Source: Chrysemys picta bellii (taxonomy: Eukaryota > Chordata > Testudines > Emydidae). Taken from it: a stretch of 64,000 nucleotides of DNA. Position 1 is the stretch's first letter. Each line of letters begins with the position of its first letter. The DNA is taken from the NCBI RefSeq assembly GCF_011386835.1, contig NC_088801.1, positions 372,001 to 436,000 on the forward strand. Reading direction: 5' to 3'. Both the position numbers and the translations under genes were made by a program. Of the stretch, positions 7,474-56,636 are shown in pieces. Under the pieces are notes generated by a model. The model saw nothing but the letters and a program-made list of their open reading frames with translations, was not told where the DNA came from and did no database searches.

Positions 7474-7591
7474 CATAGAATCTCAGGGTTGGAAGGGACC
7501 TCAGGAGGTATCTAGTCCAACCCCCTGCTCAAAGCAGGACCAATCCCCAACTAAATCATCCCAGCCAGGGCTTTGTCAAGCTGGGCCTTAA
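7474..7591 (-). repeat. CR1 3'-end fragment
   Basis: The plus strand reads TAGAATCTCAGGGTTGGAAG, then GGACCTCAGGAGG, CTAGTCCAACCCCC and CAGCCAGGGCTTTGTCAAGC. This is the reverse complement of the CR1 3' end also seen at 19290-19430. Its 5' edge is fused into the last exon of the APOL-like gene and supplies that gene's stop codon. Confidence 0.85.
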
Positions 7592-8327
7592 AGTTAGGGC
7601 CTTGACCATTTCGTTGAAATGGTCAATCATTTGCTCCATTTCATTGACGGCTTCTCGGATTTTAGCTGCCAGCTCCGTTTTTGCACCTTTGTGGAGATCC
7701 ATAGAATCTTTTGCTGTAAAGAAAGTATCTAACCCCGGGGTGACACCTGTTAGAACGTGGGTCGCAGCTCCTGCAAAGTTTGCAATTCTACCAACATTAG
7801 CCAGGACCTGACCAGCTTTGACCATTTTCATGGTGTTAAGAACAGCTCGTCCTGCCCCTGAACCTATCTGTGGGATTGCAAACACAAAACCTTTCTTTTC
7901 ATTATCTTTCAAGTTTTGGATTTTTTCAGCTATTCTTTCTGCATAGTCTTTGATATGATCCATGTCAGCCTGACACTCCTGAAGGAGCTTCTCTACTGTC
8001 TCCCTCTTGACTTTACTTGCCACTTTATCTGTGGTAGTTGCGGCTGCACTGGTCAGTCCCCCTGCGGTAGAAATAGCAAGCCCTGTAAGAGAGACTATCA
8101 GGGATGCTCCAAATGTAACAGGAATGAGACAGAGGCCTACGATGGTTGTTATCCCCCCAGCAATTCCCACTGCCCCTCCAGTAACGTTTGCTATTCTTGC
8201 TCCTTTGTGGATCTTGTCAATAGCATCTGCAATTTCCCGAAGCTCATCTATGTGTCTCTTCACTCTGTCTCTTGCTGGCAATAACGACTCCGTCAGTATT
8301 TCATCAATGTCCTTCATTATTGACAAA
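7556..8327 (-). CDS. Apolipoprotein-L-like domain, downstream exon of predicted fusion gene
   Basis: The exon opens after a good acceptor (long pyrimidine tract, then CAG at 8330-8328) and stays open to a stop at 7556. The protein starts SLSIMKDIDEIL and has an amphipathic helical N-part. A long Gly/Ala/Ile-rich hydrophobic region follows (VTGGAVGIAGG ... FGASLIVSLTGLAIS ... AGGLTSAAA), then helical charged segments (VKRETVEKLLQE) and a second hydrophobic stretch around the GAGRAVLNTMK and NFAGAATHVLTG motifs. This hydrophobic hairpin with flanking helices is characteristic of the apolipoprotein L family, whose members associate with intracellular membranes. The last 11 residues (LRPSLTKPWLG) are encoded by a CR1 3' end, so the native C-terminus has been replaced. 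An APOL gene that starts at the internal ATG at 8313 without the upstream exon is the alternative. Confidence 0.8.
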
Positions 8328-8522
8328 CTGACAGAAATGAGGGGGAAAAAGGAAAAATTAGTCTCCAGGTCTAAGATCCCTGCTCCTGCACCTTCTTGTG
8401 CAGTCTGGACCTGCTCCCATTGACTTCCATGGGAGCTGCATCCACTTAGACCAGGGCTGAGTTTGGGCCTTGGTGACGGGTGAACCTCAGTAGGTTTCAT
8501 TTGGATAAAGACCCAGAATTTA

Positions 8523-8720
8523 ACTTAGGACCGTTGGAATTGCCACACTGGATCAGATCAATGGCACATCTGCAGAAGACTTGTGGTGTGTCTCGAAGAG
8601 GGACCAGTAGCCGGTGATTTACAGGAATGTGAAAACACCCTTAAGGGAAAATTGTGGAATAAACTGCCCAGAGGTTAATTTAAGAGTCGATTCCACGGAG
8701 AGGGTTCGACTCCAACACAC
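8523..8720. repeat. Unclassified dispersed repeat fragment
   Basis: It contains GTTGGAATTGCCACACTGGA and TCAGATCAATGGCACATCTG, a repeat type frequent in reptile genomes. A relative, including GACCAGATCAGACCAGGCGT, lies at 10870-11060. The class is not known to me. Confidence 0.4.
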
Positions 8721-9009
8721 ACCCAGGTAGGGAAACACAAACAATCCCCACCACACACCGCTTTAAAAATTAACTTAAAAAACAAACCAGATGTTCTGAT
8801 TTGTGGGGCCCAGGCCTGATCATCTCCCCCTCAGGCTTGTTCAAACCCTCCTCCTGGGATGAGCTTCCCGGCTCTCTGCTCCAACCACATCACCCTGTTG
8901 TGTCACTCCCCTGGTTCTCTCTCCTCCCCCATGTCAAACCCCAGCTCCTGGCCTTCGCTGGTTGGGCCCTTCCCTGTTCAGTCCCCGCCCCTCTCCCGGT
9001 CAGTTATAG

Positions 9010-9361
9010 CAGTGATTCTCAACCAGGAATCCGGGACCCCCTGGGGGGGTCGCGAGTAGGTTTCAGGGGATCTGCCAAGCAGGGCCGGCATGAGATTTGC
9101 TGGGGCCCAGAGCAGAAAGCCAAAGCCCGACTGCACGGGGCTGAACCCCGGGGCTGAAGTTGAAGCCGGAGCAATGTAGCTTTGCGGGGGCCCCCTGTGA
9201 TGTGAGACCCTGGGCACTTGTCCTGCTTGGTGCCCCTAAGGCCGGCCCTGGCTTTTATATGCAGGAAAACAGTTGTTGTGGCACAGGGGGGCCGTGGAGT
9301 TTTTATAGCATCTTGCGGGGGGGGGGGGTGTGCTCAGAAAGAAAAAGGTTGAGAACCCCTG
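9010..9361. mobile_element. hAT (MER5/Charlie-like) MITE
   Basis: The terminal inverted repeats are CAGTGATTCTCAACC and GGTTGAGAACCCCTG. The flanks carry an 8-bp duplication (AGTTATAG at 9002-9009, AGTTACAG at 9362-9369), as expected for hAT insertions. It hosts a second element at about 9080-9250. Confidence 0.8.
9080..9250. mobile_element. Nested hAT MITE of the CAGGGCCGGC family
   Basis: It begins CAGGGCCGGCATGAG and ends TAAGGCCGGCCCTG, an inverted pair, and lies inside the MER5-like element. I could not find a convincing TSD. The same termini end the autonomous hAT remnant at 33223. Confidence 0.6.
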
Positions 9362-9784
9362 AGTTACAGTACCACAGCGCTGACCTCGGCCTTCCCTCTA
9401 CCCGTTACTTCATCCCTTACTGCCGGCTGGTCTTTCATCCACCAGCACCTTCATACCGTCTCCTAAACGCCCACCTTGTCCTCTTCAATCCTCCTTCAGC
9501 TTTACCCCTGCCCTGGTGCCCAATGAAACAATGGCTGGCTGGCAGTGGCTAGTCTGACCGTGACTACGCTGACAATGGCTGTAGTCTGGCAGTGGCTGGC
9601 GCGAGGAAGGCTGAGATGTGTGAGCTGTTACGTAGAGGTGTGAGCAGGTCTCAGCTAGTGCAGTTGGCTCCATTGCAGTAAATGGAGCTATGCCACCCTG
9701 GTCTGCACCAGCTCAGGGGCTGGCGCCTGGTGTTCATTTTACTGTCACCGTCTCACCCCTTGCCCTGGTTGTCTTTCTTCCACC

Positions 9785-9940
9785 CACTTGCACCTTATGA
9801 TAATCCTGGATTGCGAGCGCCCTGGGGCAAGGGCTGTCTCTCCACCATGAGTACAGCCCCTAGCACCATGGGGACGCAATCCCTGTGTGGGGTCCCTAGG
9901 CACCAGTGCCATACAGTCAATAGTGAGGGAACCACCCACA
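9785..9940. repeat. MIR/L2-type 3'-end repeat
   Basis: GGGGCAAGGGCTGTCTCTCC, then CAGCCCCTAGCACCATGGGG, fits the ancient vertebrate repeat tail with 'gggcagggactgtctc ... cctagcacaatgggg'. A reverse-oriented relative lies at 35020-35115. Confidence 0.5.
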
Positions 9941-9975
9941 ACATGCACTGCCCATGGGAAAGGAGAGTTGCTTAC

Positions 9976-10733
9976 CTTCCCTGGAAATTGCAGGTAAGAA
10001 ACTCATCAGGCACAGCTCTCTCACAAACTGAGTTCACGGCTTCTTCCCCACAGCAGGTGTATTTTCCATTCTCATATTTTCCTTTGTGATTTAGGGTAAT
10101 TTCAAATTCACACTCAATGTTGTTAGCATTTAATAGTGCTTTCGCAAGGGAATTCAGATCTGGGACACTGGGTTCTGAACCAACTTTCAATTTTGCCAAC
10201 TTCCCTCTCCAGGCAAAGGCAACATCAATACTCTCCTTGGGATGGTTGATATCTCGTATCCCCAGGAAGTGAGACACTTCATGGATAAGAGTCCCTGACT
10301 GAGACCCTTCTCCAAGATGTGTAGAAGCCTTCCAGAACAGTGGGCACAAATACACTGTTTTGTCACCAGACTCTGAATAAATATATGCGTCATTATTTTC
10401 CCTGGTTAGATCCTCCTTAAACTTCACAGCTTCCAGCTCTGAGATGAGATCTCGAACTAACTCTTCTGTCAGTATCACATGGCGTTTCATCCAGGATTTG
10501 GGATCTCCACTATCATCCAAAAACAGCTCCTGGGGCTTCTCCATCAGCACTCGGTCCTTCTTCTTCAGGGCATCTCTCAGAATCTCAATTGCTCTCCGCT
10601 TTGCTGCTTCTGCAATTTGTCTCCTTTCTTCAGGTAGGGATGTGTGGTTACTGGAAGAGTAACTTGCTTTAGAAGTAGACCACATTCTTCCATGTGATGT
10701 CACGCTGCTAGTGATTATTTCCTGGCAACTCAT
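9976..10733 (-). CDS. HExxH metallopeptidase-like domain (M35/aspzincin type), upstream exon of predicted fusion gene
   Basis: Starts at ATG 10731-10733, with A at -3 in the context CAAAGATGA. The exon encodes 252 codons plus two bases before the donor. A helical basic region (residues about 34-62) is followed by a globular part with YLCPLFW (128-134), HEVSHFLGIRD (151-161; the HExxH bases are 10269-10283), ESIDVAFAW (167-175) and LAKALLNANNIECEFE (196-211). In M35-type metallopeptidases HExxH supplies two zinc ligands and the catalytic Glu, a downstream Asp is the third ligand (here D170 would fit), and an LCP-F motif and an NAD-YEYF-like helix flank it. All four are present in order. Substrate is unknown. 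It reads directly in phase into the APOL-like exon. If the splice is not used, it ends two codons on (Arg, TAA). Confidence 0.7.
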
Positions 10734-11575
10734 CTTTGCACCTACGTCGCACGTTCACTTCAGCCAAGAGTAATTCTCCAGGTGAGCTCTCTCTGTTAAA
10801 ACACAAGATTTGGCTTTGATTACGTTGCCTTTCGAGGTAAAGTGTCTGACACATTTCGATTCACTCTAATGGGAACACAGGAAACACCCGACCAGATCAG
10901 ACCAGGCGTCCATCTAGCCCCCTCTTCTCTCTCTGAAACTGGCTGGTACCAGCTGGTTCAGGGGAAGGGGCAAGATACCCCCCCCCAATGGACAAGTGCA
11001 GAATAATTCACCCTTAGAGAGACTTTCTTCCTAACTCCAGATAGTTAGTGTCTGGGAGGCTTGTGCCCTGAGGGGGAGGGTTTAGATCTCTTCCAAACAC
11101 TGGAGACTTGGTTTTGTGTTTTCATTCTCTCTCGTGTAACTGTGGAGGTGCTGCCTGTCTGTCTGAGTCTCCAATTCTCCTCTGAATCCCGCACATGATA
11201 CCTGTGGCCATGAGCTCTACAGCGGAGGTACGTGTTATGTACATGGGTGTCCGTGTGTCAGTTTTACCTTTTCTTCCCTCCGCTTCATCGCGTGTCCCGT
11301 TGTTCTTGAATTATGAGAGGGGGTAAAGAGAAGCCCTGACCGACCTACTCTCTGCCATTCGTTAGTTTGTACATTCATCATTGTCTTCCTAAACTAAACA
11401 GCCCCCTCTTGTTAATCTCTCCTCACACAGCGGGTTTTCCAGACCCAAGTGATTTTGTTACTCATCTGAACCTCCTTTATCTCTGCTCTATCCTTGGTGA
11501 ACAAAACTGGGGACAGAACTGAACTGAGGCCTGGTCTACACTCCAAAGGCAGGTTGACATCAGCCAACAGGATCT
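10734..11575. other. Upstream flank of the host gene, with repeat fragments
   Basis: It probably holds the 5' UTR and promoter of the gene: a possible minus-strand acceptor (TTTTAACAG near 10797) would place an upstream non-coding exon further right. 10870-11060 is a copy of the unclassified repeat at 8523. At 11528 a stretch with GGCCTGGTCTACACT resembles the end of a reptile TIR MITE and abuts the truncated CR1. Confidence 0.4.
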
Positions 11576-11587
11576 ACCCAGATCCTG

Positions 11588-12547
11588 GTGTGGTTTTGCA
11601 GGGACTGTAACTTGCAATTTCCACTTACTGATATCCAGACTGGGGGGACCATCCAATGTGAGAGGTGCCTGCTGGTGGAATCTCTCAGGCAGCAGGTGGG
11701 GGAGCTACAGGAGGAGGTGGCTAGGTTGAGGAGCATCCGAATCCACGAGCAATTCCTCGACAGTGTCCATGTGGAGACAGCTGAGGTAGCTGTCCCAGTA
11801 CACAGGACTGCTGACACACCACTGGTGGAGGAGGAGATGGCTCAGGGTGGACACTGGCAGCTGGTTACTTCTGGCAGCAGGCAGTGCTCCACCCCTGCTC
11901 TGAACCCTCCTGCCATGGTAATAGGTAACCGTTATGCTCTTCTTGATACAGGAGAGAAGGAATCACTCCCTACAGTGAAGGAGGAGAAGCCTCGTACCCC
12001 TAAGGCTGGGAGGTCTGCTGCCACCACTGCGAATAGGAAAGGTAGGGTAGTGGTGGTCGGAGACTCTCTGCTGAGGGGGACGGAGGCGCCCATCTGTCGC
12101 CCTGACATTTCATCTCAGGAGGTATGCTGCCTGCCGGGGGCCCGTATCCGAGACGTTACGGAGGCATTGTCGAGGATTATCCAGCCCTCTGACTACTACC
12201 CCATGCTACTCATCCATGTGGGCACAAATGATACTGCGCGGTGTGACACTGAGCGGATCAAGAGTGACTACAGGGCTCTGGGAGTACGGGTGAAGGAGTT
12301 TAGAGCGCAGGTGGTATTCTCTTCAATTCTTCCTGTCAAAGGTAGGGGCCCGGGCAGAGACAGATGCATAATGGAGGTGAATGCCTGGCTGCGAAGATGG
12401 TGTCGCCAGGAGGGCTTTGGCTTCCTAGACCACGGGATGCTATTCGAGGAAGGACTGCTAGGCAGAGATGGCGTTCACCTTTCAAGGAGGGGAAAGACCC
12501 TATTCGGACACAGACTGGCTAACCTAGTGATGAGGGCTTTAAACTAG
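11588..12547 (+). pseudogene. CR1 LINE ORF1 (5'-truncated): zinc finger plus SGNH esterase
   Basis: This is the ORF1 protein of the CR1 LINE. The N-terminus is cut: the first in-frame codon is GTG and the usual leader is absent. What remains begins with a Cys-rich finger (CRDC ... CERC, residues about 4-26) and a short coiled coil (LRQQVGELQEEVARLRS). The C-terminal half is the SGNH/GDSL-type esterase domain with GDSLLRG (near residue 156), HVGTNDTA (near 210) and GRDGVHLS (near 295), i.e. Ser, Asn/Gly and Asp-x-x-His in the expected order. The domain is typical of CR1 ORF1. The stop is 5 bp before the following ORF2 frame. It is otherwise open. Confidence 0.85.
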
Positions 12548-16076: not shown

Positions 16077-16924
16077 TGGGTGAAAACCTCACTTCTTCGG
16101 ATGCATAGAGTGAAAGGTACAGATGCAGGCATTATATACTGACACATGGAGAGCAGGGAGTTACTTCGCAAGTGGAGAACCAGTGTTGACAGGGCCAATT
16201 CAATCAGGGTGGATGTAGTCCACTCCCAATAATAGATGAGGAGGTGTCAATTCCAGGAGAGGAAAAGCTGCTTCTGTAATGAGCCAGCCACTCCCAGTCC
16301 CTATTCAAGCCCAGATTAATGGTGTTAAATTTGCAAATGAATTTTAGTTCTGCTGTTTCTCTTTGAAGTCTGTTTCTGAAGTTTTTTTGTTCAATGATAG
16401 TGACTTTTAAATCTGTAATAGAATGACCAGGGAGATTGAAGTGTTCACTTACTGGCTTTTGTATGTTACCATTCCTGATGTCCGATTTGTGTCCATTTAT
16501 TCTTTTGCGGAGGGACTGTCCGGTTTGGCCAATGTACATGGCAGAGGGGCATTGCTGGCACATGATGGTGTTTATCACATTAGTGGATGTGCAGGTGAAT
16601 GAGCCCTTGCTGTTGTGGCTGATGTGGTTGGGTCCTCTGATGATGTCGCCAGAGTAGATATGGAAAAATGATCCCTCCCTCTCACAGACCTTGGGAGGCA
16701 AGCCAGTCCTCGCTTACAGACAACCCCCCAACCTGAAGCAAATACTCACCAGCAACTACACACCACACCACAGAAACACCAACCCAGGAACCAATCCCTG
16801 TAGCAAACCTCGTTGCCTACTCTGTCCCCATATCGACTCTGGTGACACCATCAGAGGACTCAACCACATCAGCTTATGCCCAAATAAATCTGTTAGTCTT
16901 TAAGGTGCCACCAGACTCCTTGTT
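16077..16924 (-). mobile_element. Penelope-like element with head-to-head inversion
   Basis: The left part is minus strand: PLE terminal-repeat sequence (CACTTCTTCGGATGC) followed by the endonuclease ORF. From about 16690 the sequence switches to plus-strand PLE: a Cys-containing linker (translated motif KPRCLLCPHIDSGDTIRG) joined at about 16873 to the terminal repeat with AAATCTGTTAGTCTTTAAGG. Such 5' inversions are common in PLEs. The left terminal repeat is cut where the gypsy LTR begins. Confidence 0.8.
16204..16701 (-). pseudogene. PLE GIY-YIG endonuclease
   Basis: This is the C-terminal endonuclease of a Penelope-like retroelement. The protein has SGDIIRGPNHISH, then the Cys pair region (IMCQQCP), the YIG core as MYIGQTGQSLRKRINGHK, then VSEHFNLPGHS and LQRETAELKFICKFNTINLG. 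The GIY-YIG nuclease nicks the target for reverse transcription. The frame is open for 165 codons, but the reverse transcriptase that should precede it is absent because the sequence inverts at about 16690. It is a fragment of the polyprotein rather than a whole gene. Confidence 0.85.
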
Positions 16925-19076: not shown

Positions 19077-19430
19077 GGGGGGATTGGATAGCTGCTTTCA
19101 ACTACCTGAAGGGGGTTCCAAAGAGGATGGAGCTCGGCTGTTCTCCCTGGTGGCAGATGACAGAACAAGGAGCAGTGGTCTCAAGTTGCAGTGGGGGAGG
19201 TCTGGGTTGGATATTAGGAAACACTATTTCACTAGGAGGGTGGTGAAGCACTGGAATGCGTTACCTAGGGAGGTGGTGGAGTCTCCTTCCTTAGAGGTTT
19301 TTAAGGCCCGGCTTGACAAAGCCCTGGCTGGGATGATTTAGTTGGGGGTTGGTCCTGCCATGAGCAGGGGGTTGGACTAGATACCTCCTGAGGTCGCTTC
19401 CAACCCTGAGATTCTATGATTCTCTGCCCT
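19077..19430 (+). repeat. CR1 3' end (same copy)
   Basis: The end of ORF2 (DDRTRSSGLKLQ, RRVVKHWNALPREVVE, FKARLDKALAGMI, then TAG) is followed by the 3' UTR hairpin region (GGGGGTTGGACTAGATACCT) and an ATTCTATG-type tail repeat at 19411-19425. These are CR1 hallmarks. Confidence 0.9.
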
Positions 19431-19510: not shown

Positions 19511-20196
19511 CAGGGCTAGGCAAACCACGGCCCGCGGGCCGGAACCGGCCCATCAGGGCTTTGGATCTAGCCTGTGGGATTTCCACCTGTGGTGCCGCGG
19601 GGCTAAGACAGGTTCCCTGCCTGCCCTGGCCCTGCCCCGCTCCTGGGGCAGCCGGCACCACGTCCCTGCGACCCCTGTGGGAGGGGAGAGGGCAGAGGGC
19701 GCCACGTGCTGCCCTCACCTACAGGCACCCCCCCCCACACACAGCTCCCATTGGCCAGGAATGGGGAACCGCAGCCAATGGGAGTTTTGGGGGAGGTACC
19801 CTCAGGCGAGGGCAGCACACAGAGCCGTCTGCCCTCTCCCCTCCCGCTGCAGACCGCTGCCACCCCAAAGCCGCTCCAGGTAAGCAGTGCCCGGCCGGAG
19901 CCCCCACCCCAACCCCTCCTGCACCCCTCACCCCAAACCCCTGCCCTGAGACCCCCTCGCGCACCCCAAACTTCTCCTGCACCCCTCACCCCAAACCCCT
20001 GCCCTGAGACCCCTGCCTTGAGCCCCTTGCTGCACCCGTCCTGCACCCAAACCCCCTGCCCTGAGGCCCCTACTGCACTCCACACCAAACCCCTCCCTGC
20101 ACCCCAACCCCCCCACCCCAGCCCTACATTCATGGCCCTGCATGCAATTTCCCCACCCAGATGTGGCCCTTGGGCCAAAAAGTTTGCCTACCCCTG
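19511..20196. mobile_element. Non-autonomous hAT element
   Basis: It begins CAGGGCTAGGCAAACC and ends TTTGCCTACCCCTG. The flanking 8-bp duplication is ATCTAGTT (19503-19510) and ATCTAGTC (20197-20204). The interior has a C-rich degenerate tandem stretch (ACCCCAAACCCCTGCCCTGA-type units, about 19910-20110). An inverted partner starts at 63681. Confidence 0.85.
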
Positions 20197-20203
20197 ATCT
20201 AGT

Positions 20204-20900
20204 CTGAGCTCCTGGACAGCCCTGGCCGGAATATTTTGCCCAGTTACTCTTGTGCTGAGCCCCCAGGACTTTGTGTTTCACTAAAGCCCCCCCCAGGGAG
20301 GCCCCAGGCTGGATGTGATGCCACCAGGAGCTGGAGACTCCAACCCTTCCCTTGGAGCTTGTTCCAAATCGGTGCCTTGTTTCCGATTTCAGTTTGTCGG
20401 GCTGCAGCTTCCAGCCGTTGGCTCTGGTTCGTCCCGTCTCCGCTAGATGAGAGCGCCAGCACTAGTGCCTGCTGGTATCTGCCTGGGGAGGGGCTTCCAC
20501 ACGCATCACGTCACCTCTCCCTCTGCCCCCTGCTCAGCTGGGCAGACCCAGCTCGGTACGGCTCCCACGGCACAGCGATTTCCGCAGCCCTCGAGTCATT
20601 TCTGAGCCTCTTTCTGCACCTGCCCCAATTTATAATGTTTTTTTTTTTAATGTGGAGCCCAGAACTGGAGGCAGGATTCCAGTATCGGTCTCCCCAGTGC
20701 CATATTCCGGGTAAAATCCCCTCCCTGCTCCCACTCGCTTCTCCCCTGTGTATCCAGCCCAGGCGGGCACTGGCTCTTTGTGCCACCGCATCGCACGGGG
20801 AGCTCACGGTCAGATGCGTCTCCACTCTGACCCCTACGTGTCTGTCAGCGTCTCTGCTTTCCAGGGTACAGCCCCCCAGTCTGTAGCTTACCAAACACTG
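20204..20900 (-). pseudogene. Old CR1-like LINE 3' fragment
   Basis: On the minus strand, around 20660-20720, the sequence parallels the CR1 RT section 'LVRPxLEYCxQFW' (GDRYWNPASSSGLH, degenerate). The part at 20204-20330 looks like a LINE 3' UTR with stretches matching CR1 tails. Divergence is high, so the subfamily is uncertain. It is inside the inverted arm and its partner is at about 63000-63680. Confidence 0.5.
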
Positions 20901-21289
20901 CGTACAGCAACCCCAGGGATCTGCCAGTGCCCCTGCACCATGACCCCCAGCACCTCCTGCTAGTCACCTCTGTGACCCACGGACCTCTCGGTGCCAGCTG
21001 GCAGAGGGCACAGGGCACATGGGGTACAGGGATCCCCTGGGTTCACCATCGGGGTCATGTAACGTCTGCTGAAAGCCTGTGTCACACTGGTCATCGTGAG
21101 ATGTAAGTGCGGCGACTATGTGGGGACGTCTGTATATCTGCTGGAAATTGTGTTCTCCAGCCTTGCAGGTAAAGACAGATCACTCAAAGGCAGCGCGCGG
21201 TGAGACAAGCTGCTCCTGACAGCGGGTGGGAGACACTCATCTCCCCGGGGGCCGGTGGGTTTTGTGTGTCTCACAATAGACGTCTGTTA
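20901..21289. other. No gene recognised
   Basis: Low-complexity-free sequence with no identifiable element. It is duplicated in inverted form in the right arm (about 62590-63000). Confidence 0.4.
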
Positions 21290-21324
21290 ATGGAGTGAGT
21301 CAAATGCTAACAAAGAGCCGGTGG

Positions 21325-21550
21325 AGAATGACCACGCTGAGGGATGGACAGACAGACACCAACCGGCATATGGTCCCTGGGGGACAAACAGACAGAAGCA
21401 CGCAGCCCCCGGTGGACAGAGAGACAGACAGACGCATGTGGTCCCTGGGGGAGGGACAGAGAGATGCATACGGCCATGCGAAACCTGGGGGGATGGACAG
21501 ACAGATGCATGCGGACCCTGGGGATGGACAGACAGACGCACACGTGGTTC
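21325..21550. repeat. Minisatellite, GGATGGACAGACAGA-type
   Basis: Degenerate units of the form 'ccctgggggatggacagacagatgcatgcgga' repeat here. The inverted partner (62195-62580) has extra copies of the longer unit that contains TTTCGCATGGCCGTATGCAT: one copy here, three there. A third related array lies at 33960-34290. Confidence 0.75.
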
Positions 21551-21763
21551 CCTGGTACCGGGGTGTGATCCACGCGCCCATAGAGCGTGGGGCGAGGGGG
21601 AGACCAATGCCCCAGCGCCCATCAGGGCCCTGCCCCATGTGCAGGCTGCCTGCTGCTGCAGCCGCTCCCACCCAGAGCCAGCAGCTCCCTGCCCGTTCCC
21701 CGCCCCACACTCCACCCTGGGGCAGCCGGCTCCAGCTGTGTGGGAGAGAGTGCCCCCGCCCTG

Positions 21764-22815
21764 TGTGACGTTATTGATATACTCTGGGACCATATAGATC
21801 ATTGTTGCAACCAAGGTCCTGTAGTGGCACCCAGATCTTGTGTAAAGGGGGTCAAATAGGGGTCTAAGACAAGGTTATGGTTTACTGGTTATGATTATGC
21901 TGTCTATATGTATGTATCAATTTTGTAGTTGAAGTTAGGAATATTGGCTCTATACTATCTGCATTTCAAACTTAGGCTATGCTGCTGGGTGACATCCCAG
22001 ACAACATGGTGTTAGCTCTGCCTAGCCTGCTTGATGGCCCATTAAGGACCATCAGCTATACAATGGACCCATTGAGAGAAGGCAGATACGCCTTGTAACT
22101 CAGCAAAGTATGCAGGGACTGGCCCATGTGACTCCAGACTCCATTTTGCTGTAATTTTCCACGGTAAGAACAAAGGTGTTCTTACACCTGGAAAAGACTA
22201 TATAAGGCTGATGCCTCATCTCCATCTTGTCTTCAATCCTGCTTCTTACCTCTGGAGGAACTTTGCTACAAGCTGAAGCTTTGAACAAAGGACTGAGGAC
22301 CCATCCCAGCGGGGGATGTATTCCAGAGTCTTGATTTGAACCTGCAGTTTATTCCATCGCTGCTGCAAGCCTGAACCAAGAACTTTGCCATTACTGGATG
22401 TAATTGATTCCATTTAACCAATTCTAACTCTCATCTCGATCTTTTTCCTTTTATGAATAAACCTTTAGATTTTAGATTCTAAAGGATTGGCAACAGCGTG
22501 ATTTGTGGATAAGATCTGACTTGTATATTGACCTGGGTCTGGGGCTTGGTCCTTTGGGATCAGGAGAACCTTTTTCTTTTACTGGGGGTAGGTGGGTGGC
22601 ACTGGTGGTAATACTGGGAAACTGGAGTGTCTAAGGAGATTGCTTGTGAGACTTGCGGTTTGCCAGTGGGATGAGACCGAAGTCCTCCTAGTCTGGCTGG
22701 TTTGGTTTGCCTTAGAGGTGGAAAAACCCCAGCCTTGGGCTGTAACTGCCCTGTTTGAGCAATTTGTCCTGAGTTGGCACTCTCAGTTGGGTTCCACCAG
22801 AACCGCATTGTCACA
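21764..22815 (+). mobile_element. Solo LTR (left-arm copy)
   Basis: It runs TGTGACGTTATTG to GCATTGTCACA and has an exact 5-bp duplication CCCTG (21759-21763 and 22816-22820). A TATA box (CTATATAAGG, 22198-22207) precedes AATAAA (22456-22461) by about 250 bp, so U3-R-U5 order gives the plus orientation. The paralogous segment near 33.5 kb lacks it. Confidence 0.85.
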
Positions 22816-22972
22816 CCCTGTATAGGGAGAGCAGCCCTGCCCAGCCTGGGGCGTGTTGGGGGGTGTTGGGCTCCTGGGGGGGTGCCCCAGGGGACCCCAC
22901 GCTGCCAGGCCAGGTTTGCCTGGTCAAAGGAATGGGGCGGGGGGGGGGGTGGGGAGAGGAGGCTGTCAGGGC

Positions 22973-24987
22973 CAGGGCCGGCTCTAGGTTTTTTGCTGCC
23001 TCAAGCAAAAAAATTTTTGGCTGACCCCCACCCCAGCCCTGGGCTCTCCCGCCCCCCCCCCCCCCACTCCCAACTGCACCCTCCTGCTGCCCCAGCCCTG
23101 GGTCACTGGTAACTCGCTCCCAGGGCGGGTCATTCAGCAGGAATTTTGGATGTGCACAGAACACAGACAGGATTGGTTCCCATATGGTTACAGAACTGCA
23201 GTAAAGTGGAACAATTTTCAGCATGTGTGATTGGAGGATATCTAGATGCATATTATAAGACTGTCCTACATAAATGAGGAAAAGTTGAGGTGCCTTTATT
23301 ATTCTTTTGTTCTATTCTTTGTTTCTGTGGGGAATTTGCCAATGAAATCACTGTCTGCCTTTTAAACAAATAAAACTAAAAAAAAAAAAAAAGCAATGGC
23401 TTTTCCAGTCCTAATAACCACTGGGAAGCATTTCTTGCTCAATTTATCCTACTTTTTCTACAGCAAGTTACAGTGGATCAGTAGATTTGATTTGGGAGAA
23501 ATGAAGTAACAGCTGCCCAAATTGAGCTTGAGCACTCCTGAATTTTGAGGTGTTCAAATCTGGAAGGCAGGTGCTAGATTCCCTTTCTGAATATTCGCTA
23601 AATCTGGAAAAGAAAAGTCAATTTCTGCTTCCATGGCTCAGAAGTGGAAATCCTCCTACGTGCCTGGTACTGTATCTAAAGCTGCCCAGGTCCTAGTAGA
23701 GCCTCCCCTCCCTTCCTTTTCATTTTAAATTCCAGTGGGATCCGCGTACCTCCCTTGCTAGGCTTCAGATAGAGAGGGGCACTGTCCATTTAGTCCCCCC
23801 AATTCTTTCTTTGGGGGAGAGCCCAGGGCTGGGGCGGCAGGAGGTGTAGGTGGGGGCCAGGGCTGGGGCACAGGGGGTGCGGGTGTGTGTGGGGGGAGAA
23901 GAGCCCAGGGCTAGGGTGGCAGGAGGTGTAGGTGGGGGCCAGGGCTGGGGCACAGGGGGTGCGGGTGTGTGTGGGGGGAGAAGAGCCCAGGGCTGGGGCG
24001 GCAGGAGGTGTAGGGCGGGGAGAGCCCAGGGCTGGGGCGGCAGGAGGTGCAGGGCGGGGAGAGCCCAGGGCTGGGGCGGCAGGAGGTGCAGGTGGGGGCC
24101 AGGGCTGGGGCACAGGGGGTGCGGGTGTGTGGGGGGAGAAGAGCCCAGGGCTGGGGCGGCAGGAGATGCAGGTGGGGGCCAGGGCTGGGGCACAGGGGGT
24201 GCGGGGGTGTGTGGGGGGAGAAGAGCCCAGGGCTGGGGCGGCAGGAGGTGTAGGTGGGGGCCAGGGCTGGGGCACAGGGGGTGCGGGTGTGTGTGGGGGG
24301 AGAAGAGCCCAGGGCTGGGGCGGCAGGAGATGCAGGTGGGGGCCAGGGCTGGGGCACAGGGGGTGCGGGGGTGTGTGTGGGGGGAGAAGAGCCCAGGGCT
24401 GGGGCGGCAGGAGATGCAGGTGGGGGCCAGGGCTGGGGCACAGGGGGTGCGGGTGTGTGTGGGGGGAGAAGAGCCCAGGGCTGGGGCGGCAGGAGATGCA
24501 GGTGGGGGCCAGGGCTGGGGTGGCCGGAGGTGCGGGGGAGGGAGAGCCCAGGGCTGGGGCGGCAGGAGGTGTAGGTGGGGGCCAGGGCTGGGGCACAGGG
24601 GGTGCGGGTGTGTGTGGGGGGAGAAGAGCCCAGGGCTGGGGCACAGGAGGTGCAGGTGGGGGGAGAGTCCAGGGCTGGGGTAATACGGGGGTGCGGGGGG
24701 GCGGCAAAAACCCTAGAGCTGGCTCTGTCCCTACCAAAGCTGCAGCATGAGGTTTCAGTTCCATACTCCTTCCCCCTCCCTTTCCTGTTGGTAGTGGCCA
24801 AGGGAATGCTGGGAAATGTAGTTCTTTCCCTGCTCCAGGGCTGGCTCTAGAGGCAGGGAGCTAACCAAGGAACTACATCTCCCAGGGCCCCCTGTTGGGT
24901 CTCAGCTCTCATGCGGGATTCTTGCGCCCCTGCAAATGTGCCGCCCCAAGCCCCTGCTTGCTTTGCTGGTGCCTAGAGCCGGCTCTG
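22973..24987. mobile_element. Non-autonomous hAT carrying a minisatellite
   Basis: The ends are CAGGGCCGGCTCTAGG and CCTAGAGCCGGCTCTG, inverted relative to each other. The 8-bp duplication is GTCAGGGC (22965-22972) and GCCAGGGC (24988-24995), and the paralogue at about 33420 carries only one GCCAGGGC (reverse strand), i.e. an empty site. The interior holds a pyrimidine/purine-biased minisatellite (23816-24700), an A-rich tract and no transposase. Near 24837 an internal CAGGGCTGGCTCTAG suggests a further nested end. Confidence 0.85.
23816..24700. repeat. GC-rich minisatellite, about 80-bp unit
   Basis: Units contain CCCAGGGCTGGGGCGGCAGG, then AGGTGTAGGTGGGGGCC and GTGCGGGTGTGTGTGGGGGG. About eleven units occur here, with shorter variant units mixed in. 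Strong purine strand bias leaves several frames open on both strands; none is a gene. Confidence 0.9.
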
Positions 24988-31607: not shown

Positions 31608-33223
31608 ATGGGAGTTGCGATAGCTGACATGAGAGGTCAGGGCTACGATAATGGTGCCAACATGAGAGGAAAGAACAGAGGAGTGCAGACACAGATCCGA
31701 GAGTAAAACCCTCGAGCTTTTATTGTCCCGTGCAGTTCTCATTCACTGAGCTTGGTGGTCAGTGATGCAGCATCAGCTTCTAGTGAGGCTGCTGGTTTTT
31801 TTAATGTAAGTCAAAGCATCTCTGTATTTTTCTCTGCATCAACTCATCGATGGCAAATTTTGAAGCAACATCTGGGAACATCCTCACTGACACTGAAACC
31901 ACTGAGTGCCACACGATGGGAAAGTCGAGTGGAGGCGATAAAGCCTATCAAACACCAAATTGGGAAGATAGATGATGCCATAGTTGCCATTATGGAGGAT
32001 GATGCTATGACAGGAACTGTTCGTGGGAGAACAGTGGCAGAGGGAAATGGAATCACCAGAAACATACATAACTTCACATTTCTGTGTGGCTTAGTGTTGT
32101 GGCATGACATCCTGTTTGAAATAAATGTTGTAAGCAAGAGACTCCAAGGAGTTGACCTTGATATATCTGGAGCAATGGAACAACTAGACATAGCAAAGTC
32201 ACACCTACAGTCTTACCGGTCAGATGAGCGATTTCAAAACGTTCTGAAGAATGCACACAAGTTGGCAGAGGAACTTCACACTGAAGCTATTTTCCCACCC
32301 ATTCAAGAATACAAGAGTCACCAAAGAAGAAGACCTTTTAATTACAAGGCACGGGATAATCCCATAAGAGACCCCAAACACCAATTCAAAGTTGAATTCT
32401 TTAACCAGGTGCTAGATTGTGCAATACAGTCAGTTGAAGAACGTTTCATGCAGCTCAAGGAACACAGCAGTATATTTGGGATGTTGTATGATATTCCAAA
32501 ACTCCTCACTATACCTGAAGAAGACCTACACCAGCAATGCAGGGCACTAGAGACAGTGTTGACACATGATGACATGCGCGATATTGATGCGAGTGATTTA
32601 GGTGATGAACTGAAAGCCCTTTCAAGACACATTTCAGCAGGATCAACTCCAAAGGTTGTTCTGGAATATACGTGCACAAATAAGATGACCACCCTCTTTC
32701 CAAATGCTTTTGTTGCTCTGCGCATACTTCTAACACTTCCTGTAACAGTTGCCAGTGAAGAACGCAGCTTCTCCAAGCTGAAGTTAATAAAAACACATCT
32801 ACGCTCCACAATGACACAGGAGAGGCTGGTCGGCCTTGAAACCATCTCAGTAGAGCATGAGCTAGCCCAGACTGTGGACCTTCAGCAGGAAGCAGTTCAA
32901 ATCTTTGCAACCAAGAAGGCCAGGAAAGCACCACTTTGATTATTCAAACAGATAAAAATGCCAGTGTTTACTATGCAGACAAGAAAAGTTACATTTGCTG
33001 TTCAGGCGTTTGAAAGTTAAGAGTTACTTACAATTTTTGAACAAGGCATTTTAAGTTGTTAGTTCTCCTTTATTGGGGTAGGTAGCAGAGCAGGACCATG
33101 AGAGGAGTAGAACAGGAAGAAGGCAGATTTAAGATCTTTCAAAGTTTTGGCCCGAGCGAGGGGACATGGGGGCGTCATTTGAGCTCCCCGCCTCAGGTGC
33201 CAAAATGTTGTGGGCCGGCCCTG
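31608..33223 (+). mobile_element. 3' half of an autonomous hAT element
   Basis: It contains the transposase pseudogene and ends GTTGTGGGCCGGCCCTG at 33223, the terminus of the CAGGGCCGGC family whose non-autonomous members occur across the window. The 5' half is replaced by LTR-like sequence. Confidence 0.75.
31613..32939 (+). pseudogene. hAT transposase (ZMYM/TTF-finger type), 5'-truncated
   Basis: The frame begins without a start codon (ADMRGQGYDNGANM near 31622). It meets one TAA just after QIRE (about 31705), then stays open for about 410 codons to the stop at 32937-32939. The stretch HSLSLVVSDAAS is the RNase H-like catalytic core, LSATRWESR follows, and the C-terminus has the hAT dimerisation motif (NAFVALRILLTLPVTVASEERSFSKL). 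The N-terminal zinc finger is absent. The enzyme would cut at the element's TIRs. The long open frame despite one stop suggests moderate age. Confidence 0.85.
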
Positions 33224-42077: not shown

Positions 42078-45034
42078 TTAAACCATTCCCTCCATAAACT
42101 TATCTAACTTTATCTTAAAACCAGACAGGTCCGTCGCCCCCACCGTTTCCCTCGGTAGGCCGTTCCAATATTTCACCCCTCTGACGGTCAGAAACCTTCG
42201 TCTAATTTCAAGTCTGAACTTCCCCACGGCCAGTTTGTATCCATTCGTTCTGGTATCCACGTTAGTACTAAGCTGGAATAATTCTTCTCCCTCCCTTGTA
42301 TTAATCCCTCTAATATATTTAAAGATAGCAATCATATCCCCTCTCAGCCTTCGCTTTGTCAGACTAAACAACCCAAGCTCCTCTAGTCTCCTTTCGTACG
42401 ACAGCTTTTCCATTCCTCTGATCATCCTAGTGGCCCTTCTCTGCACCCGTTCCAGTTTGAGTTCATCTTTTTTAAACATGGGAGACCAGAACTGCACACA
42501 GTACTCCAAATGAGGTCTCACCAGCGCCTTGTACAACGGAAGCAGGACCTCCTTATCCCTACTAGATATACCTCGCCTAATGCATCCCAAGACCGCATTG
42601 GCTTTTTTCACCGCCACGTCACATTGTCGACTCATAGTCATCCTGCGGTCTACAAGAACCCATAGGTCCTTCTCCTCTTCCGTTACTTCTAACCAATGCA
42701 TCCCCATCTTGTAACTAAAATTGTTATTAGTCATCCCCAAATGCATCACCTTACACTTTTCACTATTAAATTTCATCTTATTTCTGATACTCCAATTCAC
42801 AAGCTCATTCAAGTCTCCCTGCAGGATATCCCTGTCTTCCTCCGAATTTACAACGCCTCCCACCTTCGTATCATCCGCAAATTTTATCAGCCCACTCCTG
42901 CAATCGGTTCCGAGGTCAGTTATAAATAGATTAAATAAAATGGGTCCCAAAACCGAACCTTGAGGCACTCCACTAGTAACCTCCCTCCAACCCGACAGTT
43001 CACCCTTTAATACAACCCGCTGCATTCTCCCCAGTAACCAATTCCTTATCCACTTCTGGATTTTCATATCGATCCCCATGTTTTTTTCAGTTTAACCAAT
43101 AATTCCTCATGGGGTACAGTATCAAACGCTTTACTGAAATCCAGGTATATTAGGTCCACCGCATTTCCCTTATCTAATAAATCCGTTACTTTCTCAAAGA
43201 AGGAGATCAGATTCGTTTGGCACGATCTGCCCTTCGTAAAACCATGTTGTAATTTATCGCAATTGCCACTACCCTCCAGGTCCTCAACTAGTTTCTCTTT
43301 CAGAATTTTCTCTAACACCTTGCACACTACAGATGTTAGACTAACTGGCCTGTAGTTACCCGGATCACTTTTTTTCCCTTTCTTGAAAATAGGAACCACA
43401 TTAGCTATTCTCCAGTCTAACGGGACCACCCCCGAGTTTACAGATTCATTAAATATTATCGCTAACGGGCCTGCTATTTCCCGCGCCAATTCCTTCAATA
43501 TTCTCGGATGTAGATCGTCCGGTCCTCCCGACTTAGCCCCATTAAGGCGTTCAAGTTTTGTTTCCACCTCGGATACGGTAATCCCCCATCCCGAATGCCC
43601 CTCTATAGTGGTGCTAGTATCCCTAATACCTTCATTGGCCTCATTAAACACCGATGCAAAATATTCATTAAGATATTGCGCCATGCCTAGATTGTCTTTA
43701 ATCTCCTCTCCGGCAATAGACTTCAGCGGTCCCACTTCTTCTTTCTTTGCTCTCTTCCTATTTATGTGGCTGTAAAACCTCTTACTATTGCTTTTAATTC
43801 CCCTCGCTAGTTCCAACTCTACACGGCCTTTGGCCTTTCTCACTCTATCTCTACATTCTCTGACTTCACTTAGGTACATTTCCTTACTGATCCCTCCCCT
43901 CTTCCACTCTTTATACGCTTTCTGTTTTTTCCTAATCGCCCCTTTGAGTCGGTCGCTCATCCAGCTCGGTCTAAATCTCTTGCTTAGTAATCTTTTTCCC
44001 TTTTTTGGAATACAGGCCTCCGACAGCTCATGCATCTTTAACTTAAAGTAATCCCAGGCTTCTTCTGCTTTTAAATCCATTAATACGTTTGCCCAGTCCA
44101 CTTCCCTTACCAGTCCCCTTAGTTTGTTAAAATTGGCCTTTTTAAAATTATAAACCCTAGTCTTTGATTTAATTCTGTTACTCCTTCCATGTATTTTAAA
44201 CCGAATTAGCTCATGATCACTGGAGCCCAAATTGTCCCCTACTACCACTTCCTCAACAAGGTCCTCACTACTTGCCAGAATCAAATCTAAAATGGCCTCC
44301 CCCCTCGTCGGTTCAGTTACCACTTGATGGAGGAATTGATCAGCAAGCACTTCTAGGAACATCTGAGCCCTGTTATTGCTACTAGCGTTTGTTCCCCAAT
44401 CTATATCCGGGAAGTTAAAGTCCCCCATAATTACACAGTTTCTGTTAGTAATTACTTCTCTAAACACATTAAACAGTTCCTTATCCATATCCTGGGTCGA
44501 TCCCGGCGGTCTATAGCACACTCCAAGCACTATCCCCGGAGAGGCTCTAGTAGTCCTATTACCCAGTGTGAGTATTGCCCAGACAGACTCTGTGTTATCT
44601 AATCCATCCACTAATATTTCTTTACAGTTTATTTCACTATTGACATACAAGGCCACCCCCCCACCTTTACCTTTGTCCCGGTCTTTCCTAAACAGCGCAT
44701 ACCCCTCCATACCTGTGTTCCAGTCGTGACTGCCATTCCACCACGTTTCCGTTATTCCTACGATATCCGGTTTCAGTTCCTGGACCAAGAGCTCCAATTC
44801 CTCCATTTTATTACCTAGGCTTCTGGCATTGGTGTATAAACACCCTAATGTATGTCGTTTAGCCCGTCTCCCATTAGCAGCACTATATGTTGCGGGCCTC
44901 CTTGTGTCCGTCCCCCCTGTCCTTCCTATGTCCAATCTCATCTCCCCGGCTATGTCTCCTCTCCTTTTACTCACCTTTTCCATACTGGAATCTGGCGTGG
45001 AGATTAACTGTGCATCTCCCAACCGTCTCCCCAA
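42078..45034 (-). pseudogene. CR1 LINE ORF2, one frameshift
   Basis: An APE endonuclease comes first (LYTNARSLGNK, GITETWW, GGGVALYVN, GDFNFPDIDW, SSDHE). A spacer with the SWMSDRLKGAI motif follows, then RT ([64 protein letters not shown]), ending KLDKFMEGMV. Two long frames (45034-43064 and 43079-42078) overlap at a run of seven A's on the minus strand near 43083-43089, where one base is missing relative to a continuous frame. I see no other disruption. The first ATG is at 44983; the frame is open 17 codons further up. Its ORF1 lies immediately upstream. A recently inserted copy is the likely reading. Confidence 0.9.
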
Positions 45035-45039
45035 ACTTC

Positions 45040-46164
45040 CTAGTTTAAAGCTCTTTTGATTAGATGAGCCAGCCTCCCTCCCAGCAGTCTATTTCCTTCC
45101 CTACTCAGGTGAAGCCCATCCCGCGAGAACAGGTGTCTGTCCCCGAAAGCCTCCCAGTGGCCATACATCCCAAAGCCCTCCTTATAGCACCACTCCCTTA
45201 GCCAACTATTTATTCTCACAATCCTATCAGCCCTTTGCTGTCCTTCCCTCGGAACGGGCAGAATCCCACTAAAGATAATCTGAGCCTCTATCTCCTTGAG
45301 CGTCTTCCCCAGCCTGGCATAATCTCCCTTGATCCTCTCTAACGAGAACCTAGCCGTGTCATTTGTTCCCACATGAAGGATTATCAAGGGGTTCTTACCT
45401 GCTCCTTTTAGGATCCTTTTCAACCGCAGGTCCACATCGCGTATCTTTGCGCCCGGGAGACAGCACACCCTTCTGTTCTCCGGGTCCGCCCTGGTCACAG
45501 GCCTGTCCAATCTCCTCAGTAAAGAGTCTCCAATCACATACACCTGCCGTTGCCTGGCAACAGTGCGATCTAGTAATCTAGTCTCCGATCCCTCTAGTCC
45601 TGACCCGTGCCTGTTCCTATCTTCCCTTATGCTCCCCCTTATGCCTTCCTGAATCCTCCCGGGGCCCAGAATTGGTGCTGTCTCCATCAACTCCTCCCCT
45701 CTCTCTCTCGGACTAGCTGCTCTTCTCTTCTTCCTCACCCTCCCACCTTCAGTCGCCACCTGCTGCCCCTCCACCTCGCTATCCAAACACTCGAACCTAT
45801 TCCTGAGTTCTATTCCCCCCTCACTGGCCCTTCTTTTCCTTGGCCTACTTCTCACAGTCACATGCTTCCACCTCCCATGTTCTCCCCCCTCCATTCCCCT
45901 CTCACCGTCCTCTACCTCTGCCACAGGGCATTCTCCTTCAGCCCCCCCTTGCCTTTCCTCCATCAGCTGCTCAAACCCCCGCCTAAACTCCACCAGGGTA
46001 TCTACCTGCATCTGCAGCCCCTTAATCTTTTCCTCCAGTAACACTATCAGGCAACACTTCATACATACATACCTTAGTTCCAGGTCTCCTGCTAGGACTA
46101 TATACATACCACAGCTCCCACATGTCGCCATCTGCATTCTGTCTGCTGCTGCTGATTGGCTCAT
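45040..46164 (-). CDS. CR1 LINE ORF1: zinc finger and SGNH esterase
   Basis: Starts at ATG 46162-46164 and stays open for 374 codons. Cysteines in the order CGSCG ... VCMKCC (residues about 13-40) form a finger, followed by a coiled coil (LLEEKIKGLQMQVDTL). A long low-complexity linker leads to the esterase with VIGDSLLRRLD, ILHVGTNDTARF and SRDGLHLSREG, ending AHLIKRALN. These are the catalytic blocks of the SGNH domain that CR1 ORF1 proteins carry. Compared with the plus-strand copy at 11588, this one is complete. It ends 6 bp from the ORF2 frame. Confidence 0.9.
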   Translation of the reverse strand: MSQSAAADRMQMATCGSCGMYIVLAGDLELRYVCMKCCLIVLLEEKIKGLQMQVDTLVEFRRGFEQLMEERQGGAEGECPVAEVEDGERGMEGGEHGRWKHVTVRSRPRKRRASEGGIELRNRFECLDSEVEGQQVATEGGRVRKKRRAASPRERGEELMETAPILGPGRIQEGIRGSIREDRNRHGSGLEGSETRLLDRTVARQRQVYVIGDSLLRRLDRPVTRADPENRRVCCLPGAKIRDVDLRLKRILKGAGKNPLIILHVGTNDTARFSLERIKGDYARLGKTLKEIEAQIIFSGILPVPREGQQRADRIVRINSWLREWCYKEGFGMYGHWEAFGDRHLFSRDGLHLSREGNRLLGGRLAHLIKRALN

Positions 46165-53068: not shown

Positions 53069-53522
53069 TGTCACGGAGTATTGGGGGACTCAGGGCCCTG
53101 CACCCCCGGCTTCCTGCGATTCACCATGACTCTCAGCCAGCCAGTAAAGCAGAAGATTTATTTGGATGACAGGAATACAGTCCAAGACAGGTCTTGCAGG
53201 CACAGACAACAGGACCCCCTCAGTTAGGTCCATCTTGGGGTCCCAGGGCACCACAGCCCCCTTGGGAGCTCAGAGCCATCTCTGCCTCCCAGCCATCTCA
53301 CCAGCCTGCTTCCCGCACTCTGCCTTCAGCGACCCCTCCCACAGCCTTTGTTCAGTTTCCCGGGCCAAGGTGTCACCTGGCCTCCAACCCCTTCCTGGGT
53401 TCTCATGTTACACGTTCAGGTATTCGCCTTCGGGCAGATCCCATCCCCCAATGCAGACTATCCCAGCCACACTCCCCTGTCAGTATTCACAGACCACAGT
53501 AAGAACAGTCCCAGTTCGTCAC
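53069..53522 (-). repeat. 3' LTR (TGTCACGG ... TTCGTCACA)
   Basis: Same family as 56637-57100 and 864-1326. It lies at the downstream side of the minus-strand element. It contains a poly(A)-signal-type AATAAA on the minus strand at its CAAATAAACC segment. Confidence 0.9.
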
Positions 53523-53537
53523 ATCTCCCCCCTTTGA
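53523..53537 (-). other. Polypurine tract
   Basis: On the minus strand the sequence is CTCAAAGGGGGGAGA directly before the LTR start TGTGACG; purine runs here prime plus-strand synthesis. Confidence 0.75.
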
Positions 53538-53891: not shown

Positions 53892-54548
53892 CTAAAGCTG
53901 TTTTCCCCTTGTCCAGGCCTTCCTCCCCCTCTGACAGGGGTCACAGGATCCGCAGTACTGTCGGACAGTAACAAAGACCCCAGGCCAGTAAAAGCTCCGT
54001 AGCAGCCTCTGCTGGGTACGCCAGGTTCCCTGGTGCCCTGAGAGGGGAATGTCATGGGCCCGGCACAGCAGCTGGCGGCGATACTTCTGGGGTACCACCA
54101 ACTGCCTCCTGATCCCCCCTGACTCCATTTTCCCTGGGGGAGCCCATTCTCGGTACAGGAACCCCTTCTCCCACAGGAACCTTTTCCGGCCACCTCGTCC
54201 CATGGTCTGTACCGCATTGAGGTCGGCCAGGTCCCTTATCTTCCGCAAGGAGGGATCTCTCTGCAACTCGGCCTGGAACTCGGCAGCTAGGACAGGGATG
54301 GCCACCTGCTCTTTCTCGCCCGCTGGGTCCGAAGCTGCAGCCTCCCTGAGCCGTGTTCCTGGGCGTTCCCTCCCCACCAGGTTAGGGTCCTGCGCCTCAG
54401 GCAAGGCACCCCCCCCAAGGCCAGGGCGCAGCGCCCCTCGCCGGCTCTGACTGCGGGTCACAACCAGTGCCCTTTGGGGGTTGCTTGGCCAGTTCTCCAG
54501 GTCCCCCCCCATCAATACCTCAGTGGGCAAATACGGGTGTACCCCCAC
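53892..54548 (-). pseudogene. Gypsy protease end and integrase zinc-binding domain
   Basis: The frame begins with the end of the protease domain (HPYLPTEVLMGGDL, residues 4-17) and, after a Gly/Pro-rich linker, gives LAAEFQAELQRDPSLRKIRDL. It then gives an HHCC-type finger: H165, H172 in AHDIPLSGHQG, and C202, C205 in CGSCDPCQ. In gypsy elements of the usual order the RT would be found between these two parts; here only about 80 residues lie between. The frame ends at 53892 before the DDE core, where the rest of pol is missing. It starts one frame away from the preceding protease frame, because of an indel in a G run near 54568. Confidence 0.8.
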
Positions 54549-55257
54549 ATCCTTGGGGCCCTCCTTGGCCCCCCCACTTCAGGTGTACCCTTGCCACGGG
54601 CACTTTGACTGGTGTTCCGCCCACCCCCGTCAGGGTCAGGTAGGTGTTGGGCACCACCTGATCTGGGGCCACCACCTCGGGCCGGGCCAGCGTCACCTCT
54701 GCGCCCGTATCCCAGTATCCATTGACCTTCCTCCCATCCACCTCCAGGGGAACAAGGTACTCTCTCCGGAGGGACAGCCCCGCGCCTACCGTATAAACCA
54801 AAAACCCTGAGTCTGGAGCATCCTGCCCCCTAGAGGAGCTGGCCTGGAGCTCTCCTCCCTCCTTAGCAGGTGGTACTCTGCCAGCCCCCCTTCCCTGGGA
54901 ATGCTGCCTCTCTCCGGGCTGGGTCTCTACCCAGTCAACCCTCTGTGGGTTCGGTCTGCTCAGTCTGTCCCTGAGCCTGGGGCACTGGGCCCGTATGTGG
55001 CCTTTTTGGCCACAGTGGTAGCAGTCCATGTCCCATGGGTCCCCTTGAGTGGGTCGGATGGTCCTGATGCCGGATGTTCCCCTCTGATGGGTTTTTTCTG
55101 TATTTTCCCACGGGGAGGTCCCATGGTGACTCTCTCTCTGCGTTGTGGTGGGACTGTTCCTTTGGGACTCCTCCCTTCTATCTCCTGACCGGCTCTTTAC
55201 AAACTCATCGGCCAGCCGGCCTGCATGTCGCGGGTTCTCTGGCTTTCTGTCCACCAA
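54520..55257 (-). pseudogene. Gypsy gag end (zinc knuckle) and aspartic protease
   Basis: Residues 79-92 form a CCHC zinc knuckle (CYHCGQKGHIRAQC), the nucleic-acid-binding end of gag. An acidic/basic linker follows, then the retroviral-type aspartic protease with the active site WDTGAEV at 182-188. The first residues (VDRKPENPRHAGRLADEF) complete the SCAN-like capsid region begun in the gag frame. The reading runs on from gag after a TGA at 55348-55350, which would be Trp in an intact element. It changes frame near 54568 before the next domain. Confidence 0.85.
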
Positions 55258-56295: not shown

Positions 56296-56616
56296 CTTCC
56301 TGCTGCCACTCACCGGCCTGTGTGCTCACAGTTCCCCACAGTTCCCAGGGGGACCCCTAGTGTGCCAGCCCTTCTCGAGGTCACCACCTCTCTGCCAGGG
56401 TCGAGCTGCAGACTCCTCCGCCCCTGGGACCACTCGCTGCGATCCCCCCGGGGGACCCTGTTACCGCAAAAAGTCCTTCTCGCTGGTCACACACTCCCAG
56501 GGGTAATAACCGTCTCTCTCTCACTCTTCAGCACGCCTGGTCCCCGTCAATCCCCCTTCGTTTTACTGCTCCCCAGTCACTTACTGCAGGAAGCGCTGTC
56601 CACGGGGGTGCAGTAG

Positions 56617-56634: not shown

Positions 56635-56636
56635 GT

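Follow-up and report, generated by a model that had tools for sequence, protein, structure and literature searches.

APOLs are lipid-binding, pore-forming immune factors known chiefly from mammals, and the M35 peptidases (aspzincins) are secreted enzymes of fungi and bacteria. Portions of two reviews describe for the APOLs a transmembrane hairpin, binding to lipids and cardiolipin, and action against intracellular bacteria (PMC10937811, PMC13177371). Here we analyze a gene of the turtle Chrysemys picta bellii in which these two families appear to be joined in one chain. It lies on the minus strand, from position 10733 to 7556, of a 64,000-nucleotide stretch of assembly GCF_011386835.1 (contig NC_088801.1, positions 372,001 to 436,000), which we call the window and from whose first base all coordinates are counted. 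On balance, we favor the reading that this is a three-module gene with a phase-2 intron, encoding an M35-related peptidase, a BTK-type zinc knuckle and an ApoL module, which arose by a fusion in sauropsids and whose product is likely a membrane-targeted peptidase.

Exon 1 (10733-9976, 758 nt; all gene features on the minus strand) is open from its ATG to the splice donor and covers residues 1-252 and two bases of codon 253, including the M35-related domain and the zinc motif. Exon 2 (8327-7556, 772 nt), open to a TGA, contributes the ApoL module, the C-terminus and the stop. Between them, the intron (9975-8328, 1648 bases, phase 2) begins with the donor GTAAGC (9975-9970), in the context GGAAG/GTAAGC, and ends with the acceptor TTTCTGTCAG (8337-8328), which follows a pyrimidine tract and precedes a T; the joined codons read GGA AGT TTG. 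Left unspliced, the donor itself reads AGG TAA, an arginine and a stop. The spliced frame comprises 1530 nt, or 509 residues and a stop, and the frames of the two exons (252 and 256 residues) are longer than the maxima of 153 and 173 residues in 1000 simple base shuffles per exon. A candidate polyadenylation signal, AATAAA, is located about 110 bases 3' of the stop (7444-7439).

The two exons and their good, phase-matched splice sites had been proposed in the initial annotation and are borne out here, as is its 510-codon frame, except that this figure counts the stop. Its two-domain reading also holds, but it overlooked the BTK-type zinc motif, an atypical histidine in the active-site loop, the repeat-derived C-terminus and the double nature of the donor as a stop codon. 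The translation of the joined exons is identical, letter for letter, to the database protein P0030 (LOC101946673, annotated 'uncharacterized'; related proteins are likewise cited by their P numbers); since P0030 comes from the same species, the identity tells us no more than that a second pipeline joined the exons in this way. The better check is that other turtles, alligators and birds have the join too, although these are likewise predicted models. The fusion is a gene model, from which we infer its splicing in RNA. A tblastn search of the window with the fused protein found the gene locus, the repeat-derived tail again at 19301 and one match at chance level (E 2.5), while 29 homologues used as queries matched at the gene locus only.

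The N-terminal domain matches the Pfam family Aspzincin_M35 (PF14521) with 37.7 bits against a curated cut-off of 30, in agreement with the M35/Asp-zincin assignment first made by motif, and its predicted structure is M35-like too, residues 30-217 (10646-10083) superposing on M35 peptidases of known structure. The putative zinc and catalytic site, HEVSH...D (10283-10251), consists of H151, E152, H155 and D161, the last a presumed ligand that a profile alignment places, past a three-residue gap, on the aspartate of the GTKD segment in the peptidyl-Lys metalloendopeptidase of Grifola frondosa (1g12/1ge6). With this enzyme and with AsaP1 (2x3a), the turtle protein shares the HExxH motif with its downstream aspartate, a preceding AYVY...TVYLC..FW block and the overall predicted fold; the second histidine and the aspartate are 5 residues apart in the turtle protein and 8 in Grifola. 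Among 108 proteins drawn from 139 by their active-site pattern, a procedure that wholly degraded sites escape, 38 are fused to ApoL and 70 are other M35 proteins. HExxH is present in 36 of the 38 fused proteins, the aspartate in 35 and both together in 35; the corresponding counts for the 70 others are 67, 67 and 65. Catalysis by the turtle domain would be expected from these sequence features. Its specificity for lysine is uncertain: the block that we take to form the lysine pocket is NADNxEY or a near variant in several bacterial relatives and intact NADNxEY in some salamanders and lizards, whereas the window copy has NANNIEC. Bacterial M35 proteins of Niastella (L009, L010, near base 5000) carry upstream what we take to be PAAR-like repeats, as presumably found in secreted bacterial effectors.

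Following the peptidase domain, and set before the ApoL module, is the second zinc motif, H216-x10-C227-C228-x8-C237 (10088-10023). BTK motifs are spaced His-x(10)-Cys-Cys-x(8 or 9)-Cys, a pattern into which these four residues fit. The motif is present in 37 of the 38 fused proteins, the exception being P0040 with a tyrosine for the first cysteine. Because the window copy scores 15.2 bits against a Pfam cut-off of 24 for BTK, we call the motif BTK-like and do not assign it as a member, though Pfam BTK is found at E-values up to 0.1 in 27 of 39 relatives, the best at 2.1e-7. A structural comparison with the PH-TH modules of Btk agrees (52 columns, 21% identity) but, at E-values of 2 or more, was too weak to count. 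The same unit of M35 domain and BTK-type motif occurs in fish and amphibian proteins (P0023 of Anguilla, 38% identical; P0018 of Pleurodeles, 42%), which differ from the turtle protein in having no Pfam ApoL call and which in some frogs (P0013, P0017, P0070) contain the unit in tandem.

The C-terminal module had been taken as APOL-like on motif grounds, and the Pfam ApoL match agrees, with 106.9 bits against a cut-off of 25.9 (residues 274-489, 8266-7619; E 1.3e-28; beginning at profile position 63 of 298). The module may share with mammalian APOL1-6 a hydrophobic hairpin flanked by long helices: a glycine-rich, hydrophobic stretch of residues 301-341 (8185-8063), with its best 19-residue Kyte-Doolittle mean of 2.3 at residue 315, sits between predicted helices 251-306 and 346-397. 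This is a candidate membrane-inserting hairpin; model confidence is low there, and the hairpin is not confidently modelled. APOL1-6 differ from the turtle protein in its N-terminal peptidase; portions of the two APOL reviews contain no mention of one (PMC10937811, PMC13177371). By Pfam calls, the fish proteins P0066-P0069 also combine ApoL with an enzyme-type domain in one chain, in their case a protein kinase and not a peptidase, presumably an independent pairing, and a protein of the fish Umbra (P0092) combines immunoglobulin domains with M35, so that both modules recombine elsewhere. A sequence match of the ApoL half to SmhB (E 0.068) was not used.

A repeat (7592-7474) encodes the final 11 residues together with the stop codon; we take it to be CR1-like, and its 119 bases are 95.8% identical to 19300-19418. 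The Chrysemys paralogues P0031, P0032 and P0050 have the same tail, whereas, among the 19 turtle rows in alignment A1, 10 have a DKQE-like ending; comparing the two, the insertion of the tail seems older than those duplications.

Both Pfam domains occur together in at least 36 clusters of predicted proteins: 18 from turtles (12 species), 8 from alligators (2 species) and 10 from birds (10 species). The joined form is therefore found in at least 24 species, with kiwi, ostrich and rhea among the birds and Emydura, presumably a pleurodire, among the turtles. The fusion, whose exon pair was to be sought in other turtles and crocodilians, is thus predicted in both, the latter represented by alligators, and in birds as well. 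The C-termini of nine squamate proteins, 155-207 residues long, receive no Pfam call. In hhalign comparisons, however, a profile of these nine (of 13 listed squamate proteins; P0009, P0011, P0081 and P0119 were omitted) matched ApoL profiles with 97.9% for stand-alone frog and fish proteins, 98.9% for turtle-alligator and for mixed profiles, and 94.8% for birds. Four controls with salamander C-termini, at 1.2 and 16.1%, were rejected as ApoL. No Pfam ApoL call, for fish and frogs the sole basis of judgment, was obtained for the listed fish and amphibian M35 proteins. Mammalian M35 proteins were not noticed among 120 of the 170 proteins found, many of them recorded without an organism, and we do not claim a mammalian loss. 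P0135 from the frog Pelobates cultripes, a 206-residue M35 protein with PF14521 as its sole call, bears the source name 'Apolipo L3', which is unexplained.

To follow the history of the two halves, we used 30 fused proteins, omitting partial or shortened ones. Distances between M35 halves correlated with those between ApoL halves (r 0.745, whereas none of 2000 label permutations exceeded 0.34), and trees of either half recovered a bird clade and a crocodilian clade. In the simplest history, the unit of M35 and BTK-type motif would have come first, the ApoL fusion would have been in place by the sauropsid ancestor, and ApoL would then have decayed in squamates. The fusion would accordingly date to the common ancestor of living sauropsids or earlier and have been kept in turtles, crocodilians and birds. 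In two birds, Apteryx rowi and Rhea, the isoform models P0134 and P0138 lack 33 M35 residues relative to P0104 and P0117, possibly due to alternative splicing.

As to function, the protein most likely resides in the cytosol and has no signal peptide. In contrast to the M35 aspzincins, P0030 has no visible hydrophobic secretion signal: the best 9-residue hydrophobicity mean in its 40 N-terminal residues is 0.71, and 1.4 and 1.6 in two birds tested. From the cytosol, the ApoL hairpin would most likely dock on or insert into particular membranes, be they bacterial, phagosomal, mitochondrial or Golgi, as described for mammalian APOLs, and the zinc endopeptidase would thereby be concentrated on substrates located there. 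The setting would probably be cell-autonomous immunity, which is the weakest step of this mechanism. A bolder version, in which ApoL carries the zinc endopeptidase to microbial, phagosomal or mitochondrial membranes as an ancient sauropsid immune weapon that expanded in copy number and diversified in turtles and crocodilians and that can occur in soluble or tethered form because its splice donor is at once a stop codon, seems to us doubtful.

Several observations weigh against a sauropsid membrane-targeted peptidase. The exact interferon-type element GAAANNGAAA occurs four times in the window, no more than expected by chance, and not once within 30 kb of the gene. The ApoL half of the full predicted model is poorly predicted, the full model has no Foldseek match in the PDB at E-values up to 0.001, and the structural matches of the ApoL half, all of which we rejected, are mostly to designed or unrelated helical bundles, including PA26/PA28 proteasome activators and bundles of the focal-adhesion type. 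On the evolutionary side, the squamate protein P0011 has no long tail and stops a short way past the zinc motif, and part of the correlation between M35 and ApoL distances reflects shared species history. The M35 tree sets P0040 and P0041 on a deep branch of unsure position, yet the ApoL tree puts them among turtles, a discordance that may point to shuffling or conversion of exons among turtle paralogues. The database models also come from shared prediction software and may have been built in part from each other.

The remaining such observations concern the active site. Just beyond it, the position occupied by tyrosine in 31 of the 38 fused proteins is a histidine in five, among them the window copy (His164, 10244-10242), and a glutamate in two; the substitution may make the window copy less active. 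The loop signature given for M35, GTXDXXYG (PMC12924839), is complete in none of the 38 fused proteins and in 5 of the 70 other vertebrate-type proteins, the window copy reading GIRDINHP, though the shorter GTxDxxY is present in 9 and 45 of them, respectively. We therefore call the domain M35-related and not a canonical member of M35; as HExxH, aspartate, profile and fold all still hold, this leaves our estimate unchanged. Two alligator paralogues, P0047 and P0049, have lost both the first histidine of HExxH and the aspartate, so that not every copy requires proteolysis, and the loop of P0041 is shifted.

All of this would also fit a pseudo-peptidase, whose M35-like fold, with its zinc bound, would act in binding or regulation and leave the work to ApoL. 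The zinc motif points the same way, its four ligands being invariant in all 39 sequences of one alignment, in which the catalytic residues vary slightly. That HExxH and the aspartate are both retained in 35 of the 38 fused proteins and 65 of the 70 others is, however, strong conservation for a dead enzyme, albeit in a set picked by pattern, and we consider a pseudo-peptidase possible but rather unlikely.

A further alternative is one gene with two products, where a retained intron, or a transcript ending inside it, yields a free M35-type protein of 252 residues, splicing yields the ApoL-tethered form, and the donor acts as the switch from a soluble enzyme to a membrane-bound one. It draws on a comparison, at the junction, of seven turtle, alligator and bird models that consist of exon 1 only. 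Six of them (P0001, P0006, P0008, P0012, P0109, P0112) end in arginine, at most about two residues from the junction; P0006, P0109 and P0112 were placed by best match (92% Natator, 97% Mergus, 94% Excalfactoria). As an unspliced phase-2 donor AG/GTAA or AG/GTGA reads arginine and stop, the place and phase of the intron look conserved across relatives, judging from protein ends in lieu of DNA. The free form would, in addition, resemble the M35 proteins that stand alone in fish and amphibians. Against this, the stop comes with any phase-2 GTAA or GTGA donor and can be conserved without selection, and P0010 (alligator) and P0081 (Anolis) end differently. We regard two products as improbable.

Of five ApoL-only models examined, three open with the apparent translation of a pyrimidine tract (P0050 with NFSFFPLISVSLS, P0055 with LFFFFSVSS, P0057 with FSALFSFSK). 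The start of P0050 matches the translated intron of the window, and the open frame of exon 2 itself starts alike, which makes these three likely read-through frames and not separate proteins; P0052 and P0056 start differently, in a way that is unexplained. That an M35-type and an ApoL gene are mere neighbors joined by annotation, exon 1 ending at the TAA in the donor and exon 2 starting from an ATG of its own further upstream, would account for the exon-1-only models P0001 and P0008, the ApoL-only models (P0050, P0052, P0055-P0057) with the odd starts of P0052 and P0056, and the listed fish and amphibian M35 proteins without a Pfam ApoL call, but is very improbable given the repetition of the joined form in predicted proteins of the 24 or more species above, the divergent ApoL after the same junction in squamates, the starts of three ApoL-only models in an apparent acceptor tract and the automatic nature of a stop in a phase-2 consensus donor.

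Elsewhere in the window, a large inverted duplication (19877-24697 and 59041-64000) has pieces of 2145, 1169 and 1666 aligned bases with identities of 92.4%, 98.7% and 96.3%, respectively, and related repeat copies, 90-94% identical, lie at 45-1326, 53069-53523 and 55808-57100; close to these is an open reading frame (ORF) on the minus strand with a Pfam Integrase_H2C2 match (53895-54578), as well as a run of 500 N, probably an assembly gap (57138-57637). We further found a LINE-type element with endonuclease and reverse transcriptase domains over two frames (42081-45088) and a hAT transposase-type ORF with a dimerization domain (31707-32936). Just upstream of the fusion gene, on the other strand, is an ORF matching GDSL-like esterases (11558-12544), which we take to be a LINE ORF1-type protein, and an ORF with a GIY-YIG match just below threshold (16207-16713) possibly belongs, we assume, to a Penelope-like element. 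Rfam has nothing above gathering score within the window. In searches for a viral or phage origin of the gene, tblastn found no match in 50,697 phage records, 38 pattern matches in viral contigs were not confirmed, and the full model had no match in a viral structure library at E-values up to 0.001.

In the three-module gene that we favor, two known families are joined in an architecture new to the literature searched. The joining had already struck the initial annotation as unfamiliar, and in the open-licence PMC literature neither an M35-ApoL fusion nor a vertebrate M35 protein is described in titles or abstract beginnings among the matches listed, where the seven papers that name PF14521 or its description appear, from their titles, to concern fungi. 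Record names are scattered, from uncharacterized protein over 'apolipoprotein L6-like', 'Lysine-specific metallo-endopeptidase domain-containing protein' and 'PLMP metalloendopeptidase' to even 'acyl-CoA dehydrogenase', and the fusion is thus easily overlooked. If the reading is true, M35 would have a vertebrate branch and the APOL family an enzymatic one. The fused protein would also be a natural reagent for the membrane action of APOLs, whose attached protease should leave cleavage marks nearby.
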